A stretch of DNA of 24,647 nucleotides. Source: a virus. The stretch covers positions 1 to 24,647 of IMG/VR virus record IMGVR_UViG_3300009285_004882. One strand, 5' to 3'. A model generated the notes under the pieces. That model was not told the DNA's origin. It saw only the letters and a program-made list of their open reading frames with translations, and did not search any database. Both the position numbers and the translations under genes were made by a program. Within the stretch, counting starts at the first letter, position 1; the number at the start of each line of letters is the position of its first letter. Of the stretch, positions 2,310 to 19,141 are shown piece after piece.

Positions 2310-2648
2310 TCACCTGCTTTCCGCCGCTGATATGGCGGCTTGTAATGGTTGTTGTAAATCTTGGCAAGCCATAATTGCTTGATTCAACGATCCATTGACT
2401 ACACATCCTTGTTTCGTAAGTTCGGAAAGTGCCCAAACCACGGTATCAAGCGATTTCTTGCACGCTTCGAGTAGTTCCGGGGCCGCGGCGATAAGACGGG
2501 CATTAGCTAATAATTCATCATGTTCTTGCTTAGTCCATACGCCTGTTTCAGCGATAAAAGCGTTTGTTTTTTCTTCTCGGATAACATAAGATTCACTGTT
2601 TCCGTGGTTTACATGTGCGCAAGTCCATTTTCCCTTAGTGTAACTCAT
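2310..2648 (-). CDS. Phage protein with NARLIAAAPELLEA motif
   Basis: A 112-aa protein. The opening MSYTKGKWTC, a short beta-rich section (SYVIREEKTNAFIAETG) and then NARLIAAAPELLEACKKSL at residues ~48-66 are the hallmark of a very common small phage/prophage protein family found in early or accessory regions. The C-terminal half is helical. The family's molecular role is unknown to me. It overlaps the upstream lysozyme-like gene by ATGA and has the same AAAGCAGGTGAA ribosome-binding segment as the next gene downstream. Confidence 0.75.
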   Translation of the reverse strand: MSYTKGKWTCAHVNHGNSESYVIREEKTNAFIAETGVWTKQEHDELLANARLIAAAPELLEACKKSLDTVVWALSELTKQGCVVNGSLNQAIMACQDLQQPLQAAISAAESR

Positions 2649-3016
2649 TTTTCACCTGCTTTCTTAATTTTATTGATATATGCTTTAACTTTTGGTTCAT
2701 TCATTTGTTTCCATCCGTCCGGGCCTGCACAATGGATAGATGCGAGTATTTCCATTGTGGCCTTTTTGCCGGTCGTTTTCTGATAATGATTCCCGTACCG
2801 TGTCAAGTATGCCTTGACTACCTTTTCGGCCTTCTGCGGGTCTTGTGCTTCGCTATACGGCCAATTAACGCCGAGATAATCAGTTCCATCTTTCCAATAT
2901 AATTCCCATATTTGAAATTTCCCTATGGCACGTCCAGAATCTCCGACGGCTTGATTATTGCCGGCGGATTCGACTTGGGCAATTAAGGGCAAAAGGGCAA
3001 AAATGATCTTATCCAT
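2645..3016 (-). CDS. Lysozyme/transglycosylase-like enzyme (candidate endolysin)
   Basis: A 123-aa protein from ATG 3016. This start is chosen because AAGGGGGGG lies just upstream and the ATG overlaps the previous gene's stop by 8 nt (ATGGATAA); an in-frame start at 3097 would bury most of that gene. IAQVESAGNNQAVGDSGRAIGKFQI resembles the active-site segment of lysozyme-fold transglycosylases, with Glu16 as likely catalytic acid and GKFQI as the substrate-cleft loop. Conserved-looking IHCAGPDG follows at ~98. It would cleave peptidoglycan glycan strands at lysis or during entry. There is no signal peptide, so a phage endolysin would need a holin, and none is evident in the leftward operon. 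Confidence 0.7.
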   Translation of the reverse strand: MDKIIFALLPLIAQVESAGNNQAVGDSGRAIGKFQIWELYWKDGTDYLGVNWPYSEAQDPQKAEKVVKAYLTRYGNHYQKTTGKKATMEILASIHCAGPDGWKQMNEPKVKAYINKIKKAGEK

Positions 3017-3212
3017 TTTGCCCCCCCTTGATGATCGAAAGCTTGATTCTGTGTAGTTTTTCATGGTATTGTCCAGAAATTCTTTGAAACGCATCATTCA
3101 GCAGATCGCCCTTGAAGTTGGTTAACGCCCGGAATTCTGTTTCAGTCCTCCAGACTTCGAGGTTTACAAATTTCCGATTGACTTCATTATTTACTTTTGA
3201 TAGATTTTCCAT
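3009..3212 (-). CDS. Small hypothetical protein upstream of the lysozyme-like gene
   Basis: A 67-aa soluble, mostly helical protein (MENLSKVNNEVNRKF...). AAGGAGT lies 8 nt before the ATG, a strong ribosome binding site. Its stop overlaps the start of the lysozyme-like gene by 8 nt, so translation of the two is probably coupled. It has no membrane segment and so is not a holin. It could be a lysis regulator or unrelated; I do not recognise the family. Confidence 0.6.
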   Translation of the reverse strand: MENLSKVNNEVNRKFVNLEVWRTETEFRALTNFKGDLLNDAFQRISGQYHEKLHRIKLSIIKGGQNG

Positions 3213-3242
3213 GCTCTTTACTCCTTATCAGTAAAGGGTCAT

Positions 3243-3272
3243 GGGGCTGGCGTTTTACGGACGCGCAGCCCC
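3243..3272 (-). other. Intergenic RNA hairpin E1
   Basis: GGGGCTG (3243-3249) pairs with CAGCCCC (3266-3272) and GCGT with ACGC inside it, leaving a one-base bulge and a 7-nt loop. It lies 7 nt below the stop of the gene at 3280-3801. No T-tract follows in the leftward direction. Its minus-strand apical part contains CCGTAAAA, shared with E2. Confidence 0.55.
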
Positions 3273-3279
3273 AAAATGA

Positions 3280-3801
3280 TTAGTTATTTTTCCATATCCG
3301 AATTGGCATAAGGCAAGCCCACATAAAACTATCCGCAAAATAAGCGATAGTATCTGCGCCACGACTTAGGAAATTTGGGCTAAAATGCAGTACTGCTTTA
3401 AGAAAACGCTCAAAATTCCAATAATCAAGAGCAATATTCCCGATAGTTGCGGCGGTTACAATTTCATGTAGTGTATCACAGCGATGCGCCAGCAAAACCG
3501 ATTCTTCTATTAGGTTTATAACGTCTTCGAGTTTAGGAAAAAACTGGTTTTCTGTCTTTACAAGACAATTCCCCTCAAGTTTATAACAACCCTCTTGATA
3601 GTTTCCGTAACCAAAAAACATTGCCCCGCATCGTCCATCCGTCGCTAAAAGTTTTGCCTTACGAACGCAAGCGTAATGCGCGTAAGGGTGGTTTGGATCC
3701 CGTCTGTATCTATCTGCGGTTTCTTTTTTGATGATACTGCGTAAAACAGCAAGTGTATTTTTGTCTGGTTCAATAAGAGACAATTTTTCTTCGTTTTTCA
3801 T
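3280..3801 (-). CDS. Small DNA sliding clamp (DnaN)-like protein
   Basis: A 173-aa protein. LLATDGRCGAMFF (residues 51-63) resembles the ATDGhRLA signature of bacterial beta clamps. FFPKLEDVI (87-95) looks like the F/YP-x-x-x-x-VI segment that follows it. The C-terminus has FLKAVLHFSPN... and ends with ACLMPIRI (162-169), like the terminal IMPMRL of DnaN. That order matches a single clamp domain; a full DnaN has about 370 aa in three domains. Possible roles are a replication accessory factor, a clamp competitor or a diverged clamp subunit. AAGGAAT precedes the ATG. It is flanked by hairpins E1 and E2. The assignment rests on motif order by eye and is moderate. Confidence 0.5.
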   Translation of the reverse strand: MKNEEKLSLIEPDKNTLAVLRSIIKKETADRYRRDPNHPYAHYACVRKAKLLATDGRCGAMFFGYGNYQEGCYKLEGNCLVKTENQFFPKLEDVINLIEESVLLAHRCDTLHEIVTAATIGNIALDYWNFERFLKAVLHFSPNFLSRGADTIAYFADSFMWACLMPIRIWKNN

Positions 3802-3835
3802 TTTTCTATTCCTTATCCTATAGTTTTTAAGTCCA

Positions 3836-3863
3836 GAGCCGAGATTTTACGGTATCGCGGCCC
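3836..3863 (-). other. Intergenic RNA hairpin E2
   Basis: The arms 3836-3844 and 3855-3863 pair at 8 of 9 positions on the minus strand, counting one G-U. The 10-nt loop contains CCGTAAAA on the minus strand, the same 8-mer found in the apex of E1. It lies 26 nt below the stop of the 89-aa gene. No leftward T-tract follows immediately. Confidence 0.5.
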
Positions 3864-3888
3864 TAAATTATGGGGTTAAACAAGAAGC

Positions 3889-5705: not shown

Positions 5706-6167
5706 ATGACAGATATGCAACTAAAAGAATTTACCGAAACAATACCCCTAATAAGCATACCTAATCCAATTGTCAAAAAATCAACAAAAGGGATCAAAAA
5801 CCCACTTAAAAGGCCAAAAAACATCAATTACAATGGTGCGCCACGCAGATTCGAATGTATACCTAAAGATATTGATACAGTAAATAAAATTATCAATGAC
5901 TTTTGCATCCTTCCAACAGAGGAACAAACAGTATGCGATTTAGCATTAGCGCTAAACATAAGCAGGGTTACATTGTTGGAGTATATAAGACGAGGTGATG
6001 ACTTATCTTTTGTAATAAAAAGGGGTTATACTTTTTGCGAGCGTAAATACGAGCGTAAATTAAGCTCACAGCAGTACGGAGGTGCTATTTTTGCCCTCAA
6101 AAACATGGGTTGGCGTGATATTCAGGAAACAACAGGCGGTGTACAGATCAATATTGTTCCAAAGTGA
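5706..6167 (+). CDS. terS: Terminase small subunit-like DNA-packaging protein
   Basis: A 153-aa protein. After a basic N-terminus, TEEQTVCDLALALNISRVTLLEYIRRG (71-97) is a helix-turn-helix that would recognise DNA. The C-terminal YGGAIFALKNMGWRDIQETTGG (124-145) matches the xxxFxLKNxGWxDxxExxxG signature common in phage small terminases. It would bind the packaging site and hand DNA to TerL. It lies two genes upstream of terL. The start is uncertain: there is no strong Shine-Dalgarno sequence at ATG 5706, and a second ATG lies 9 nt downstream. The gene is visibly more AT-rich than terL and portal, hinting at a separate origin or different selection. Confidence 0.75.
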   Translation: MTDMQLKEFTETIPLISIPNPIVKKSTKGIKNPLKRPKNINYNGAPRRFECIPKDIDTVNKIINDFCILPTEEQTVCDLALALNISRVTLLEYIRRGDDLSFVIKRGYTFCERKYERKLSSQQYGGAIFALKNMGWRDIQETTGGVQINIVPK

Positions 6168-6842: not shown

Positions 6843-7343
6843 ATGAAACAATACGGAAAAATAGCTTTATTCAGCATTTTGACATTGGTAGTTGTTTTTG
6901 GGATTATTGCTTACAAGTCGATCCCTTTAAGTGCGGCGAATTGGCCGGCAACAAATACGATTTCGATTCATAAAGCGATGGGGAACGGATTTTCGACGGT
7001 AGGCAATGCGTATGCGATTATCTCGCCGGTAGCTAACTGTGATATGTACAATTCATCCGGTGCTGTAGAGACTACATACGCTTCTGCGGCGATAACATTT
7101 ACCGCAGATGGTCAATATACGGATGAAGCATTGGCTACAATTCCGGCTTTGCCTCAAACAATTACTGATTGGGAGATAACATTTTACGAAAATGCTACTC
7201 CGACCGCCGGAGATGCGGCCGTTATTGGGCCTTGCAGACTTGATCCGCATACAGGTCAGACGTTTACTGATACGAATCCTATCAAGTATAACCGTGTCCG
7301 GATAACCAATCAGCAGACCGACGCAAAGGATCGACGAGATTAA
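6843..7343 (+). CDS. Signal-anchored or secreted protein upstream of terL
   Basis: A 166-aa protein. Residues 7-23 (IALFSILTLVVVFGIIA) form a membrane segment after a short basic N-terminus (MKQYGK). SIPLSAANW gives a possible signal-peptidase site around Ala32. The remaining ~130 residues are rich in Thr, Ala and Ser, with alternating strands (AITFTADGQYTDEALATIPAL, WEITFYENATPT), suggesting a small beta domain exposed outside the inner membrane. TTAGGAG lies before the ATG. Its stop overlaps the terL start (TAATG), so the two are tightly coupled. I do not recognise a family. Possible roles are a membrane-associated virion component or a superinfection-type surface protein. Confidence 0.6.
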   Translation: MKQYGKIALFSILTLVVVFGIIAYKSIPLSAANWPATNTISIHKAMGNGFSTVGNAYAIISPVANCDMYNSSGAVETTYASAAITFTADGQYTDEALATIPALPQTITDWEITFYENATPTAGDAAVIGPCRLDPHTGQTFTDTNPIKYNRVRITNQQTDAKDRRD

Positions 7344-8689
7344 TGGCTGTAACCGTTAAAACAATACAGGCAGAACCTTTTCAATACTCTTTCTTTACGA
7401 GTATTGCCCGGTATCCGGGTATGGTCAGTAGTTGGGGCACCGGAAAGACTATGTGGGCATTGATGAAGGGGATATTGTTAAGCCGGTTTTATGAAGAAAA
7501 TCTTGGATTGGTTGTAAGAAGTAAGTTTACGGATTTACGTGATAGTACAATGAAGGATTTTGAGCGATATACGGGACTTACAATCCCGCAGGGGACGAAA
7601 GAAATCGATATTGGAAGCTCAAAAGTCATGTTCCGTCATGCAAAAGAGCTAAGCGGTTTACAAAACGTAAACCTTGGCTGGTTTTTGATTGAGCAGGCGG
7701 AAGAGTTTCCGACGGAGGCTCAGTTTGACTTGTTAAGAGGGCGGCTTCGGCGTGAACTGAAAAGAGACTCGGATTATCATATTGACAAAAAAAGCCCGAT
7801 GTATCAGACATTAGTTAATATGGAAAAGAATCCGCTTCGGCAGGGGATTATTATCGCTAATGCCAAAGGTCATAATTGGGTATGGAAACGGTGGGTTAAG
7901 AGTATTCCCGATGGATATGCCGGTTTTCAGGCGACGACATTTGACAACGAGGGGAATTTGCCGAAGGACTTTATTGAAGACTTAAAACGGATGGCGATTG
8001 ACAGTCCGGTGAAATACGCTCAGTTTGTCCTGAACGACCACAGCGAGGTTGATATTACCGCGTCTTATTATGCGTCGTATATTTCCCAACTAAGAAAGAA
8101 CGGACATATTACGAAGATTTCGTATGATCATAATACGCCGGTATATACCGCTTGGGATTTAGGATTTGACTGTACTTCAATCTGGTTTTTTCAGATTGTC
8201 GGTAACGAAATTCATATTATTGATTATTACGAGAACACCGGAAAACCTATTGACCATTATGTTGATATTATCGTGTCCCGAAAACAGTCCGATAAATATA
8301 TATACGGAACATTTTATATGCCGCATGACTCAAACAAAAGAGAGATGCAGTCTGGGATTTCTTTATCCAGTGCAATCAGGAATATGGGATATACGGTTGT
8401 TGCGCTGGAACGGGAAAAGAATATTGATTTTGGGATTAACCGGGTCATGCAGACGTTGCCCCGATGCTGGTTTGATGAAAAGCGGTGTGAAAACGGATTG
8501 GAAGGACTTGAACATTATCGAAGAGAATATGATGAGGACAGGAAAATCTATCTGGAATCGCCACTCCATGATTGGTCAAGTCATCCGGCGGATTGCTTTA
8601 GATACCTTACTAAGTCATTGGAAAAAGCTAAGGCTTCAGTTAATTTAACATTGGATGCTTACCGTGAAATGAAGAGGAAATATGCCTAA
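7343..8689 (+). CDS. terL: Terminase large subunit (packaging ATPase and nuclease)
   Basis: A 448-aa protein that pumps DNA into proheads through the portal and cuts it. ATPase: SSWGTGKT (29-36) is the Walker A loop, with Ser in place of the usual first Gly. NLGWFLIEQAEEF (110-122) is the Walker B region, with Glu117-Gln118 where Asp-Glu is commonest. RNase H-like nuclease: YTAWDLGFDCTSIWFFQ (268-284) carries Asp272 and Asp276, and HDWSSHPADCFRYL ends with the metal-binding Asp417. Domain order and length are typical of P22-like and related terminases. The start codon overlaps the previous stop (TAATG), and the end overlaps the portal start by 8 nt. Confidence 0.92.
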   Translation: MAVTVKTIQAEPFQYSFFTSIARYPGMVSSWGTGKTMWALMKGILLSRFYEENLGLVVRSKFTDLRDSTMKDFERYTGLTIPQGTKEIDIGSSKVMFRHAKELSGLQNVNLGWFLIEQAEEFPTEAQFDLLRGRLRRELKRDSDYHIDKKSPMYQTLVNMEKNPLRQGIIIANAKGHNWVWKRWVKSIPDGYAGFQATTFDNEGNLPKDFIEDLKRMAIDSPVKYAQFVLNDHSEVDITASYYASYISQLRKNGHITKISYDHNTPVYTAWDLGFDCTSIWFFQIVGNEIHIIDYYENTGKPIDHYVDIIVSRKQSDKYIYGTFYMPHDSNKREMQSGISLSSAIRNMGYTVVALEREKNIDFGINRVMQTLPRCWFDEKRCENGLEGLEHYRREYDEDRKIYLESPLHDWSSHPADCFRYLTKSLEKAKASVNLTLDAYREMKRKYA

Positions 8690-14384: not shown

Positions 14385-17099
14385 ATGAAAACTGTATCGT
14401 TTAATGAATGCGATTCACCGGATGAAGTCTGTAAATTGTTCAATCGTGTATTTGCAGACCTCGAACTTTTGAATGTAAAACTTATTCAAGTGGAGAAAAA
14501 AATGGACGCTAAACCGGAAAAAAAAGTGAAATCAAAAAAATCCGGATTTGCACGTCTTGGCGTATTGCTGGCCGTTGTTATGGTTTTTTCAATCGGTGCG
14601 TGTGCTGAATTATGGCCGATTACGTATGATAACTGTTCGAACCCTGAAAGTCTGACCGTTCTTCTGCAAAACCGGCTTGGGATTACCGGAAGTACCTATA
14701 CCTTCGGTAACGGACTGACGATTGACAACGCAACGAACAATGTCTTTGAATGGAACGAGAACTCTGAAGACCTGTTATGGACGTTTGGAACGAACCTTCT
14801 TTCGTTGACCAGTACGACTGGAGTTGTAAAAGTCAATTTTGGTGCGGTTGTTCCGGCAGGAAACCAGTTTCTTATGAATCCCGTAGCGGACAAAGTCGGG
14901 TCTGTCGAAGGAACCCTTTATTATGACAGCGATGACGATAATTTGTACCTGACTACCACGGCGGGTCAGGTTGATTTGACCGCCGCCGCAGGCTCGATTA
15001 CGGATTTCGACACGGCTTATAACGGCGGAAGTACGGTCGATGTGGATACTGATGCGATAACCTTAACTGTCAGCGATACGGATAATAATCTGGCCTTGAT
15101 TATGGCACAGAACGACACCACGAATAATCCGAATGTAGTCCAGATTACTAATGCCGGAACGGGGATTGGTCTGGATATTGACGGTCAGGCGGCAGGCAGG
15201 GACATCGAAGGAACCGGGGCAACATGGTATGTAACGGGCGCAGGCGAGGGTACTTTTTCAAGCGTGTCGTCTGTATTTACATCGACCGGAAATTTCACTC
15301 TTGAATCCGCCGAAACTATTGGAAACGCAACAAATAGTGAAATTGCATTCACTGAAAATTCCGGTGAAGATTTTATTTTCGATATGGATGCAGGAACGAA
15401 CGCCATCGGACTCAAAAGTTCAACAGGCGTTGATGAGTTAGCAATGGGTGCAGTTGATGATTTGACCGGAGTCGGGACAATTGTTTTTGATGCGGCAGCC
15501 TCAACAATTACATTGGCGTCTGATGGTGTAGCTCAAGACCTTACGTTATCCGTAACCGGAGCTCAGAATTCAAGTCTGGTTTTGGTCTCTTCTGGAACCG
15601 GTGCCGATGCACTGACAGTTTCAACGTCGGCTGGCGGTATGGATGTTACCGTTGCAGGGGCCGCAGCAGGTGAAGATTTGGATTTACTGTCGAATACGTC
15701 TATTAATCTGACAGCTAACGAAGCCGCTATGGACGATGCGATTGTAATTGCAACCGGTGGTGCCGGAAGTGGCATGCAGATTACCTCTCTGGCAGATATT
15801 GACATTACGACTACAGGTGCAGCCGGTGAAGATATTTCTTTGACGAACACCGGTGGGTCTATCAATTTAACGGCAACCGAAAGTGCGGTGGATTCAATCG
15901 TGATTTCATCGTCTGTCGGCGGTATTGATATTACCGCTGCGGGCGGTGCCGCGACTGAGGATATTGATATTCTGGCAACGTCCAGTTCAATCAATATCGA
16001 TGCTGGCGAAAACGCGGCCAGTGCGATTACCCTAACAACCGGAGCAGGCGCAACAGGCGGAACATCTGAAACCATCGTGATTACCAACACGGATGGTACA
16101 AGTGCAAATGCCATCACTGTTAATGCCGCAGCAGGCGGTATCAATGTTGATGCACTGGATGATATTGACTTGACTGTAACAGCAGGCGGGGCAGGCGAAG
16201 ATTTGCTTTTGACTGCAACTGGCGCTCAGGATACGGCGATTACTCTTACCTCGTCCGGTACAGGCGATGATGCGATTGGTTTGGTTACGACCGCAGGCGG
16301 TATCAATATCAATATGTCCGGCGGTGCAGCGGGTGAGGATTTTGAAATCACTACCGCTACGTCGATTGATTTTTCATCCAGTGAGGCGGCAGCCGATCAG
16401 TTCAAGATGGATGCGACTGGAACTGTTGCCGGGAATGCGATTAACCTCGAAACAACGGATGGCGGTATTGTGTTTACCGCAGATGGCGCAGCTAACGGCG
16501 ATATTACCATTGATGCCGAAGATGTTATCAGTCTTACATCCGCGAACGCAGCAGGTATTCTTGCTTCAACAAACGCCAAGACACTTCGATATGAAACCTT
16601 CGGAATCAGTCAGGGTGTAACTGCGGCAAGTGAAGTGATTGTCGGAAACGGCGGTCAGGGTTTGATTTGTACTTCATTGGATGCCGGTGTAAACGAAGCA
16701 GGCGCAACAACGGGATATGCAACTGTCGGCGATGATGAAGATATTTTGATTTTCTGGGTTCCGCTTCCTGATACATGGGTTGATACAGGTACTCAGACTG
16801 ATCTGGTACTTCAATTCTATATCTCCGAACAGGCGGCTGAAGAGTGCAATATGGATGTCAGGATTTTCGAGTTCAATAACACCACGCCGATTCTTTCCGA
16901 TACACTGTTGGTTGCGAACGGGGCGGGCGCAGGATGGGTTAATCTTGTAACGAACGCCACGGGTATCGGGAACGATGCAGATGTTGATGCAGACGACAAC
17001 GGGTATATTGTTGAAGTTACGGCTACCGCAGATACGGATGATTTTCGTATTTACGGCGCACGATGGAAATACCGCGTTGGATTGCAGGCAACTCAATAA
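14385..17099 (+). CDS. Large beta-repeat surface/fibre protein with internal signal sequence
   Basis: A 904-aa protein. Residues 1-39 are a soluble helical extension. Met40 opens a textbook signal sequence: a lysine-rich stretch (KPEKKVKSKKS), hydrophobic residues 58-71 and ACA|EL at 72-76. Both starts have ribosome sites: TAGGAG before 14385, and GGAG at 14492-14495, 6 nt before ATG 14502. Residues ~390-725 contain about five imperfect 42-50-aa repeats of the form GGIDITxAGGAAxEDIDIxxxxxSINIxAxE, suggesting a stacked beta-strand shaft. The last ~180 residues (TLRYETFGISQG..., DTWVDTGTQTDLVLQFYISEQ) look like a beta-sandwich head. It may be a head or tail fibre, or a phage-encoded surface adhesin. 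Confidence 0.65.
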   Translation: MKTVSFNECDSPDEVCKLFNRVFADLELLNVKLIQVEKKMDAKPEKKVKSKKSGFARLGVLLAVVMVFSIGACAELWPITYDNCSNPESLTVLLQNRLGITGSTYTFGNGLTIDNATNNVFEWNENSEDLLWTFGTNLLSLTSTTGVVKVNFGAVVPAGNQFLMNPVADKVGSVEGTLYYDSDDDNLYLTTTAGQVDLTAAAGSITDFDTAYNGGSTVDVDTDAITLTVSDTDNNLALIMAQNDTTNNPNVVQITNAGTGIGLDIDGQAAGRDIEGTGATWYVTGAGEGTFSSVSSVFTSTGNFTLESAETIGNATNSEIAFTENSGEDFIFDMDAGTNAIGLKSSTGVDELAMGAVDDLTGVGTIVFDAAASTITLASDGVAQDLTLSVTGAQNSSLVLVSSGTGADALTVSTSAGGMDVTVAGAAAGEDLDLLSNTSINLTANEAAMDDAIVIATGGAGSGMQITSLADIDITTTGAAGEDISLTNTGGSINLTATESAVDSIVISSSVGGIDITAAGGAATEDIDILATSSSINIDAGENAASAITLTTGAGATGGTSETIVITNTDGTSANAITVNAAAGGINVDALDDIDLTVTAGGAGEDLLLTATGAQDTAITLTSSGTGDDAIGLVTTAGGININMSGGAAGEDFEITTATSIDFSSSEAAADQFKMDATGTVAGNAINLETTDGGIVFTADGAANGDITIDAEDVISLTSANAAGILASTNAKTLRYETFGISQGVTAASEVIVGNGGQGLICTSLDAGVNEAGATTGYATVGDDEDILIFWVPLPDTWVDTGTQTDLVLQFYISEQAAEECNMDVRIFEFNNTTPILSDTLLVANGAGAGWVNLVTNATGIGNDADVDADDNGYIVEVTATADTDDFRIYGARWKYRVGLQATQ

Positions 17100-18205: not shown

Positions 18206-19141
18206 ATGGCCGGAGACGGAAATTGGAATAAACTGTTACCCGTGGCGGGTGAAAAGGCAAGACTCGTCAGTGGAATTATGCGGGACAATAATAGCGGCAT
18301 CGAAACCGCGATGAACGCTGAGCATATCTTTAACGGGACAACTGCCGCTACGCAAACAGGGGCGCACCGACAGGGTTCGGCAAGGGCGTTTTTTCAAGAC
18401 TCCGCCCCGGCGACTGCGGTTGACGGCTCTGCGTTTGCCTCAACGGATTTAGGGTCTTTGTGGTTTGATACCAATAGTTCACCGGACAATATTTTGTATG
18501 TCTTGACTGCCACGACTCCAACGTGGACTCCGGTCTCAACAGAGATCATTGCAACGTTACTTGCCTCAGCAAGAGTGTTTGGAAGCACGTTAGGCGTTGC
18601 CAGCGATTTTGCCGTTAATACAGATAAACTTACCGTCGATGCCGCTACCGGAAATACTCTTATCGCCGGAACATTAGACGTTACCGGAAACTTAGACCCG
18701 ACTTCATTTGAAGCAACGAATGGCGGATTTATCGACGAAGATTCAATGGCGACTGACAGTGCAACCAAAGTCCCGTCTCAGCAAAGCGTTAAGGCGTATG
18801 TGGACAACCAGATTGACGCTACTGTCGGATCAGGAACTACAAGTCCGTTGGCTATGACAGGGTCGAATGATTCTATTGGAGAGATTACACTTCCTAATGG
18901 TTTCATTATGAAATGGGGCAAAAAAACAATTACAGGAACCGATGGCACAATAACATTTACAACGGAAGGGTTGTCGGCATTTCCCAATGCTTGTTTTCAG
19001 GTTATTGTTTGTGGCGGAAATTCATCGAGCGGAACAACACAGACGATTCAGTCACACACTCCAACGGCTACGAGCTTTAAATGGCATACTGGAAACGGGG
19101 CGGATTTAACTCCGGCAAGATGGTTTGCGATAGGATACTAA
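18206..19141 (+). CDS. Tail fibre protein
   Basis: A 311-aa protein. The N-terminal ~70 residues (MAGDGNWNKLLPVAGEKARLVSGIMRDNNSGIETAMNAEH) would attach to the tail. A short repetitive shaft contains GNTLIAGTLDVTGNLDPTSF and FIDEDSMATDSATKVPSQQSVKAYVDNQI, the latter a very common fibre signature. The C-terminal ~85 residues (LPNGFIMKWGKKTITGTDGTITF ... FPNACFQVIVCGG ... FKWHTGNGADLTPARWFAIGY) match the knob at the end of gp53-like fibres, which contacts the receptor. Its stop is directly adjacent to the next start (TAAATG). Confidence 0.8.
   Translation: MAGDGNWNKLLPVAGEKARLVSGIMRDNNSGIETAMNAEHIFNGTTAATQTGAHRQGSARAFFQDSAPATAVDGSAFASTDLGSLWFDTNSSPDNILYVLTATTPTWTPVSTEIIATLLASARVFGSTLGVASDFAVNTDKLTVDAATGNTLIAGTLDVTGNLDPTSFEATNGGFIDEDSMATDSATKVPSQQSVKAYVDNQIDATVGSGTTSPLAMTGSNDSIGEITLPNGFIMKWGKKTITGTDGTITFTTEGLSAFPNACFQVIVCGGNSSSGTTQTIQSHTPTATSFKWHTGNGADLTPARWFAIGY

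Follow-up and report, generated by a model that had tools for sequence, protein, structure and literature searches.

We tentatively propose that a small gene in the window (the whole 24,647-base stretch of DNA analysed here, which is the virus record) encodes a divergent mini-clamp from domains II and III of the bacterial beta sliding clamp (DnaN), and that it may act as a free-standing docking pocket capturing host replication proteins. The link to clamps comes through a related phage, and the possible role through short phage clamps that keep the partner-binding pocket of DnaN and have lost its ring-closing interface.

The gene and its surroundings

The gene lies within a run of small leftward genes that makes up the left part of the window, and terminase, portal, major head and other virion genes run rightward from 5.7 kb. 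The features that concern the gene and its neighbourhood are as follows (window coordinates):

2310-2648, minus strand: phrog_1273 relative, the downstream gene of the leftward set (profile search)
3242-3273, minus strand: strong intergenic hairpin directly after the mini-clamp-like gene (z -4.66, folding versus shuffles)
3280-3801, minus strand: mini-clamp-like coding sequence of 173 aa with an ATG start (ORF call); among left-arm ORFs, it and the mini-clamp of the related phage L002 match each other best
3810-3814, minus strand: AAGGA, resembling a ribosome-binding site, 8 nt before the ATG (by eye)
3833-3867, minus strand: weaker hairpin directly before the gene, with CCGTAAAA in the loop region (z -1.58; 12 of 200 shuffles fold as well)
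5706-6167, plus strand: small terminase subunit (phrog_606, profile search)
7343-8689, plus strand: large terminase subunit, used as bait for related phages (similarity search)

The two hairpins bracket the gene on the minus strand and have the CCGTAAAA element in common; by itself this element is not rarer than chance within the window (at least two copies in 36 of 100 shuffles). Downstream, positions 2645-3097 (minus) hold a lysozyme- or transglycosylase-like gene (Destabilase 4.2e-7, SLT 1e-4) that overlaps a 67-aa ORF at 3009-3212. Elsewhere on the plus strand, two large proteins of 904 and 561 aa (14385-17099 and 277-1962) have no significant family match, and 18206-19141 encodes a tail-fibre-like protein with a Gp53-like C-terminal domain (PF21882, 2.9e-13).

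Clamp motifs and the link to a related phage

Four segments of the window protein resemble clamp sequences:

3631-3651, minus strand: LLATDGR, residues 51-57, counterpart of DnaN VATDGHR (pocket positions T172, G174, H175 and R176)
3517-3543, minus strand: FFPKLEDVI, residues 87-95, counterpart of DnaN RFPDYRRVL (P242, R246 and V247)
3367-3384, minus strand: FSPNFL, residues 140-145, resembling NPKF of L002 and FNPRF of Skatevirus BS5 (alignment by eye, no statistics)
3295-3312, minus strand: LMPIRI, residues 164-169, counterpart of DnaN VMPMRL (M362-R365)

The first-pass annotation had reported LLATDGR, FFPKLEDVI and LMPIRI in DnaN order within the 173-aa ORF, and this was confirmed. With patterns composed with the mini-clamps and the window protein in view, a choice by which the shuffle figures flatter the case, the strict ordered pattern (ATDG, FP, then MPxR near the C-terminus) arose in 0 of 300,000 shuffles, and two looser patterns, shared by the window ORF and L002, arose in 1 and 2 of 300,000. 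Since no shuffle carried the strict pattern, the order in which the motifs come exceeds chance. Of all ORFs in the window and at loci L002-L081 (1,497 of which have at least 120 aa), only the window ORF carries the strict pattern.

The family link to DnaN proposed in the same annotation found no direct profile match. No clamp model in Pfam, PHROGs or NCBIfam matched the window protein, phrog_3007 was not among its PHROGs matches at E up to 1 (phrog_2112 reached E 0.039), and the bacterial DnaN domains PF00712, PF02767 and PF02768, all three present in E. coli DnaN, were absent from it. A profile built from 15 mini-clamps did not list the protein, and in a profile-profile comparison its scores of 15-19 fell inside the range of 196 decoys (best 21-25; one of the decoys was the window ORF), whether or not L002 and a further viral protein, L099, were added. 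The alignment of the whole protein to E. coli DnaN was equalled by 29.5% of 1,000 shuffles; in comparisons with 21 individual clamps, namely E. coli DnaN and 20 short clamps excluding L002, the lowest shuffle p values were 0.01 (Bcep43) and 0.031 (Ivi), both uncorrected, and most were above 0.2. A sequence search of the PDB returned no clamp (best E 0.5 or worse), and the AlphaFold model, built on a two-sequence alignment, had a mean pLDDT of 33. Direct relatives were found neither among viral contigs, searched with the protein alone or with the window and L002 alignment, nor among genome contigs, and the phage records yielded nothing beyond a weak 27% piece in an archaeal virus record. The portal protein as bait found nothing.

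The part of the family link that stood runs through L002. A search with the large terminase subunit (TerL) gave 90 related viral stretches, from which 80 loci were kept; in the closest, L002, TerL is 56% identical to that of the window. A 174-aa minus-strand ORF lies about 4.5 kb left of TerL in L002 (about 3.5 kb for the window counterpart), on the same strand and the same side of the terminase genes in both. When only left-arm ORFs were compared (43 in the window and 79 in L002), the two proteins were reciprocal best matches (E 0.0044 and 0.0026, with no other match better than 1.7); they are 29% identical over 55 aa, and L002 carries FVATDGKRLH and IMPIT. The Smith-Waterman score of the pair (59) was reached by 2 of 5,000 shuffles. 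With L002 as query the window ORF ranked first of 4,669 distinct ORFs; with the window query L002 ranked third, behind two ORFs of one other family, which also preceded it in a phmmer search over 7,542 ORFs (E 0.084 versus 0.24). In an all-against-all comparison of the left arms, one other pair, probably accidental, scored slightly better (E 0.0023 versus 0.0027). Because this pair does so once all 43 queries are counted, the link to L002 is modest, and because of this caveat we lowered our estimate for the clamp kinship of the window protein by a small step; we still consider that kinship probable, on the indirect evidence of its L002 relative. A phrog_1273 protein occurs in the left arm of both phages at different places, about 1.7 kb from the mini-clamp in L002. 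Profile searches of the ORFs from loci L001-L081, of which many are fragments, turned up no further mini-clamp.

By its profile matches and predicted fold, the 174-aa L002 protein is clearly clamp-derived. It matches phrog_3007 (1.3e-6), phrog_947, DNA polymerase processivity factor (4.3e-6), NCBIfam TIGR00663 dnan (4.7e-5, under that model's curated cut-off) and, by sequence, beta clamps in the PDB (0.0015). It has no Pfam match, its contig holds no second phrog_947 match, and a plasmid search gave one weak match to it. Its model reached a pLDDT of 76.7 and a pTM of 0.75; the alignment behind it included the window protein and 13 DnaN fragments, a composition that favours a clamp result. When this model was compared with the PDB by Foldseek, 47 of the 50 matches listed were named clamps or clamp complexes and 3 were mismatch repair complex chains (TM-scores 0.47-0.60, rmsd 6-9 among the matches listed). 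A second structure aligner placed model residues 1-166 on E. coli DnaN 124-366 (7azk_D, Z 12.2, rmsd 4.0, 157 residues), the best clamp being 6ap4_F (Z 12.6, rmsd 3.7 A, 153 residues). The structural match to a clamp that the first-pass annotation had proposed as a check is given by the model of the relative L002, where the part aligned to DnaN II-III has MPI (162-164) inside it. In a viral fold search with the L002 model, 12 of the 50 matches listed were short proteins of 163-222 aa; the 217-aa Sam46 protein of this search is presumably Sam46 gp53, named a PolIII-beta-type processivity factor in a passage of its genome paper (PMC8190038).

Short phage clamps, their pocket and their spacing

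Short beta-clamp-like proteins are an already known phage family, phrog_3007. E. coli DnaN matched 313 of 50,697 phage records, at one place each; in 133 records the match spans at least 80% of DnaN, and among the 34 lower-coverage matches listed 27 start at residue 136-150. The 178-aa protein of Skatevirus BS5 matched 294 of 50,697 phage records (a count that includes a few full-length clamps, at least one), and in 283 of them the match spans 80% or more of the query. We fetched 18 short clamps of 169-224 aa from annotated records; examples of the family are Bcep43 gp15, Escherichia phage rolling gp39, Skatevirus BS5 and Vibrio phage vB_VnaS-L3. Record labels read 'DNA polymerase III beta subunit', 'RusA-like Holliday junction resolvase' (11 of the 40 matches listed in the Skatevirus BS5 search) or hypothetical; the Bcep43 record has 'DNA Pol III b subunit fragment', and two records disagree on phiHSIC ORF2, one calling it a beta subunit and the other RusA-like. 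PHROGs labels phrog_3007 a RusA-like Holliday junction resolvase, and in our profile comparisons it behaves as a clamp family. All 9 fetched members scanned (of 18) matched phrog_3007, the same 9 also matched phrog_947, and 3 of 3 mini-clamps checked matched the NCBIfam dnan model. The phrog_3007 profile matched 9 of 14 control genomes, and in 6 of 8 other genomes its matches fell in frames 364-414 aa long, lengths to be expected of DnaN.

The VnaL3 clamp adjoins a primase-polymerase and ends about 3.4 kb before the terminase gene, on the terminase strand; the terminase of this phage also resembles that of the window. A search for prophage mini-clamps at E 1e-17 found them in 0 of 398 and 0 of 194 genomes of two bacterial phyla, with the E. 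coli control positive by some protein. One phage record, MG065686.1 (Campylobacter phage A18a), has at 113831-114928 a coding sequence whose product shows 100% identity with DnaN of E. coli K-12, which suggests bacterial contamination of that record. E. coli also makes a short form of its own beta, the UV-inducible beta*. In the portions of the open PubMed Central literature searched for it, beta* did not appear, and among titles and abstract openings in that literature there was no study of a short phage clamp's function and there were no binding data for any mini-clamp.

We aligned the 18 fetched members to E. coli DnaN, taking as the pocket the 18 positions given in a passage of PMC11139829 and as the dimer interface I78, R103, F106, I272, L273, E298 and E304. 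The members retain about residues 136-251 and 311-366 of DnaN; domain I is absent, and so is the first half of domain III (about 252-310), on which I272 and L273 sit. All 18 cover 18 of 18 pocket positions and 0 of 7 dimer-interface positions, and the window protein likewise covers 0 of 7. L002 and L099 cover 2 of 7 in the same alignment, which we took as probably stray alignment. Identity to E. coli DnaN was 69% in the pocket versus 22% elsewhere for 20 short clamps (the 18, L002 and L099), and 63% versus 25% for 13 full-length viral DnaN, where the full-length controls and L099 had been retrieved by the VATDGKRL pattern and the 18 members by clamp similarity, choices that both favour pocket residues. 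The pocket thus looks, on these alignments, as conserved in short clamps as in full-length ones, with the ring interface gone.

In the window protein, 17 of the 18 pocket positions were aligned and 7 were identical, in an alignment that misplaced FP; L002 has 10 of 18 identical. By hand alignment the protein retains T172, G174, P242, V247, M362, P363 and R365 and departs from DnaN at H175R, R176C, L177G, R246D and V360C. Given these changed residues, the protein may bind a different partner or be losing its pocket.

The window protein, L002 and L099 have a still shorter layout than the 17 phrog_3007 members measured. From ATDG to FP there are 35 residues in the window protein, 40 in L002 and 43 in L099, versus 60-96 in the 17 relatives and 70 in E. 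coli DnaN; from FP to MP there are 76, 77 and 80, versus 62-76 and 120, these ranges leaving out Vib1246 (in which the automatic measure caught the wrong FP) and L095 (probably likewise). L099 (191 aa) was found by a scan with the VATDGKRL pattern and has a C-terminal GEPxRP segment in common with L002; its contig also encodes SSB, a DnaB-type helicase, a Dam methylase and a PD-(D/E)XK nuclease. Its alignment with the window protein was no better than shuffles (p 0.5). The pattern V[YF][YF]GEPxRP was dropped as a family signature: of the 7 viral stretches carrying it, 2 were the L002 and L099 contigs and 3 (L123-L125) had it in unrelated frames, and among the 11 listed of 13 genomic stretches none was a clamp. 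A separate 227-aa viral clamp (L095, 3344-4024, minus) has a central-domain match (phrog_947 6.8e-13) and an unusual C-terminal end; it is truncated differently from the mini-clamps and was left out of family counts.

The window protein is like phrog_3007 in being short and in having ATDG, FP and MPxR-like motifs in order, but differs in its ATDG-FP gap (35 versus 60-96 residues in the 17 members) and in being missed by the family profile. With bacterial DnaN it shares the motif order, and its relatives share the peptide-binding pocket, whereas DnaN has 366 aa in three domains with a ring-closing interface and the window protein has 173 aa. Its motif spacing is near-identical to that of L002 and L099. 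Gp168 of phage Twort is likewise a phage protein aimed at the host clamp system, but it binds the DNA channel of the host clamp, and the passage concerned does not call it a clamp homologue (PMC11139829). An anti-Tmn protein of Dhillonvirus was dropped as a comparison; it is described as rod-shaped in a passage of PMC11846954, and two other Dhillonvirus papers contained no passage matching the clamp terms.

Possible role and competing explanations

On the reading that we tentatively favour, the window protein would be one compact module from the II/III part of the beta clamp. Its relatives have lost domain I together with half of domain III, and the dimer interface with them, but keep the pocket for QLxLF-type motifs; such a protein should close no canonical ring around DNA. 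The free pocket might capture the clamp-binding motifs of the host clamp-loader delta, Pol III alpha and others, by which either host clamps would be starved of partners or captured partners would be brought to phage DNA. In passages of PMC11139829, the motifs of all known partners bind the clamp pocket, the same pocket is the target of antibacterial peptides, and clamp-loader delta has an about 50-fold stronger affinity for a monomeric beta variant than for the dimer; a ringless soluble pocket could therefore be a strong competitor for delta or polymerase tails, or an adaptor. The first-pass suggestion that such a protein could recruit host replication factors, or compete with them, is consistent with the anatomy of the relatives, in which the pocket appears to be kept. 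That the window protein itself folds like them, binds clamp-binding motifs and captures partners, and with which of the two outcomes, we infer. A broader version of this idea, which we think somewhat unlikely, is that phages kept only the docking pocket and dropped the ring, so as to have a soluble receptor that would, during infection, capture host polymerases and clamp-loader delta; the most reduced forms would be the window protein, L002 and L099, with the pocket on one clamp-like module, that of the window being retuned to another partner.

The resemblance could also be convergent or accidental, the gene encoding a small unrelated phage protein that happens to have ATDG, FP and MPIR segments. 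The window protein's lack of profile support, its shuffle-level similarity to DnaN, the pLDDT of 33 for its model and the unrelated left-arm pair that scores as well as the L002 pair would all fit such an accident; against these stand the strict motif order, which the shuffles did not reproduce, and the finding that among left-arm ORFs the window protein and a genuine mini-clamp of the same length and motif spacing in a related phage are each other's best match, and we consider an accident unlikely. A mini-clamp in decay, losing its pocket and with little present function, is decidedly unlikely in our view: the changes at H175, R176, L177, R246 and V360 in the hand alignment and the lower pocket identity (7 of 17 aligned positions versus 10 of 18 in L002) could be read in this way, but the ORF is intact, is preceded by a sequence resembling a ribosome-binding site and lies within a run of small leftward genes.

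The first-pass annotation had also raised a higher-order ring, in which about six one-domain subunits would self-assemble and serve as a phage processivity factor. Clamp rings are built of six similar repeats, as dimers of three or trimers of two (in a passage of PMC4858162), the DnaN search found no second clamp beside a short clamp at its cut-off, and replication genes accompany some short clamps, with SSB and a DnaB-type helicase on the L099 contig and the primase-polymerase beside the VnaL3 clamp. Yet all 7 canonical dimer-interface positions are uncovered in the 18 relatives and in the window protein, and no replacement interface was seen, so that ring formation by mini-clamps is disfavoured on the alignments and we consider such an assembly decidedly unlikely.

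On the docking-pocket reading, the window protein is a divergent form of a known kind of short clamp. A pocket that is kept while the ring interface is lost would give these proteins a testable role, as a natural decoy or adaptor for clamp-binding motifs, and the layout of L002, L099 and the window protein would indicate to what size such a pocket can shrink.
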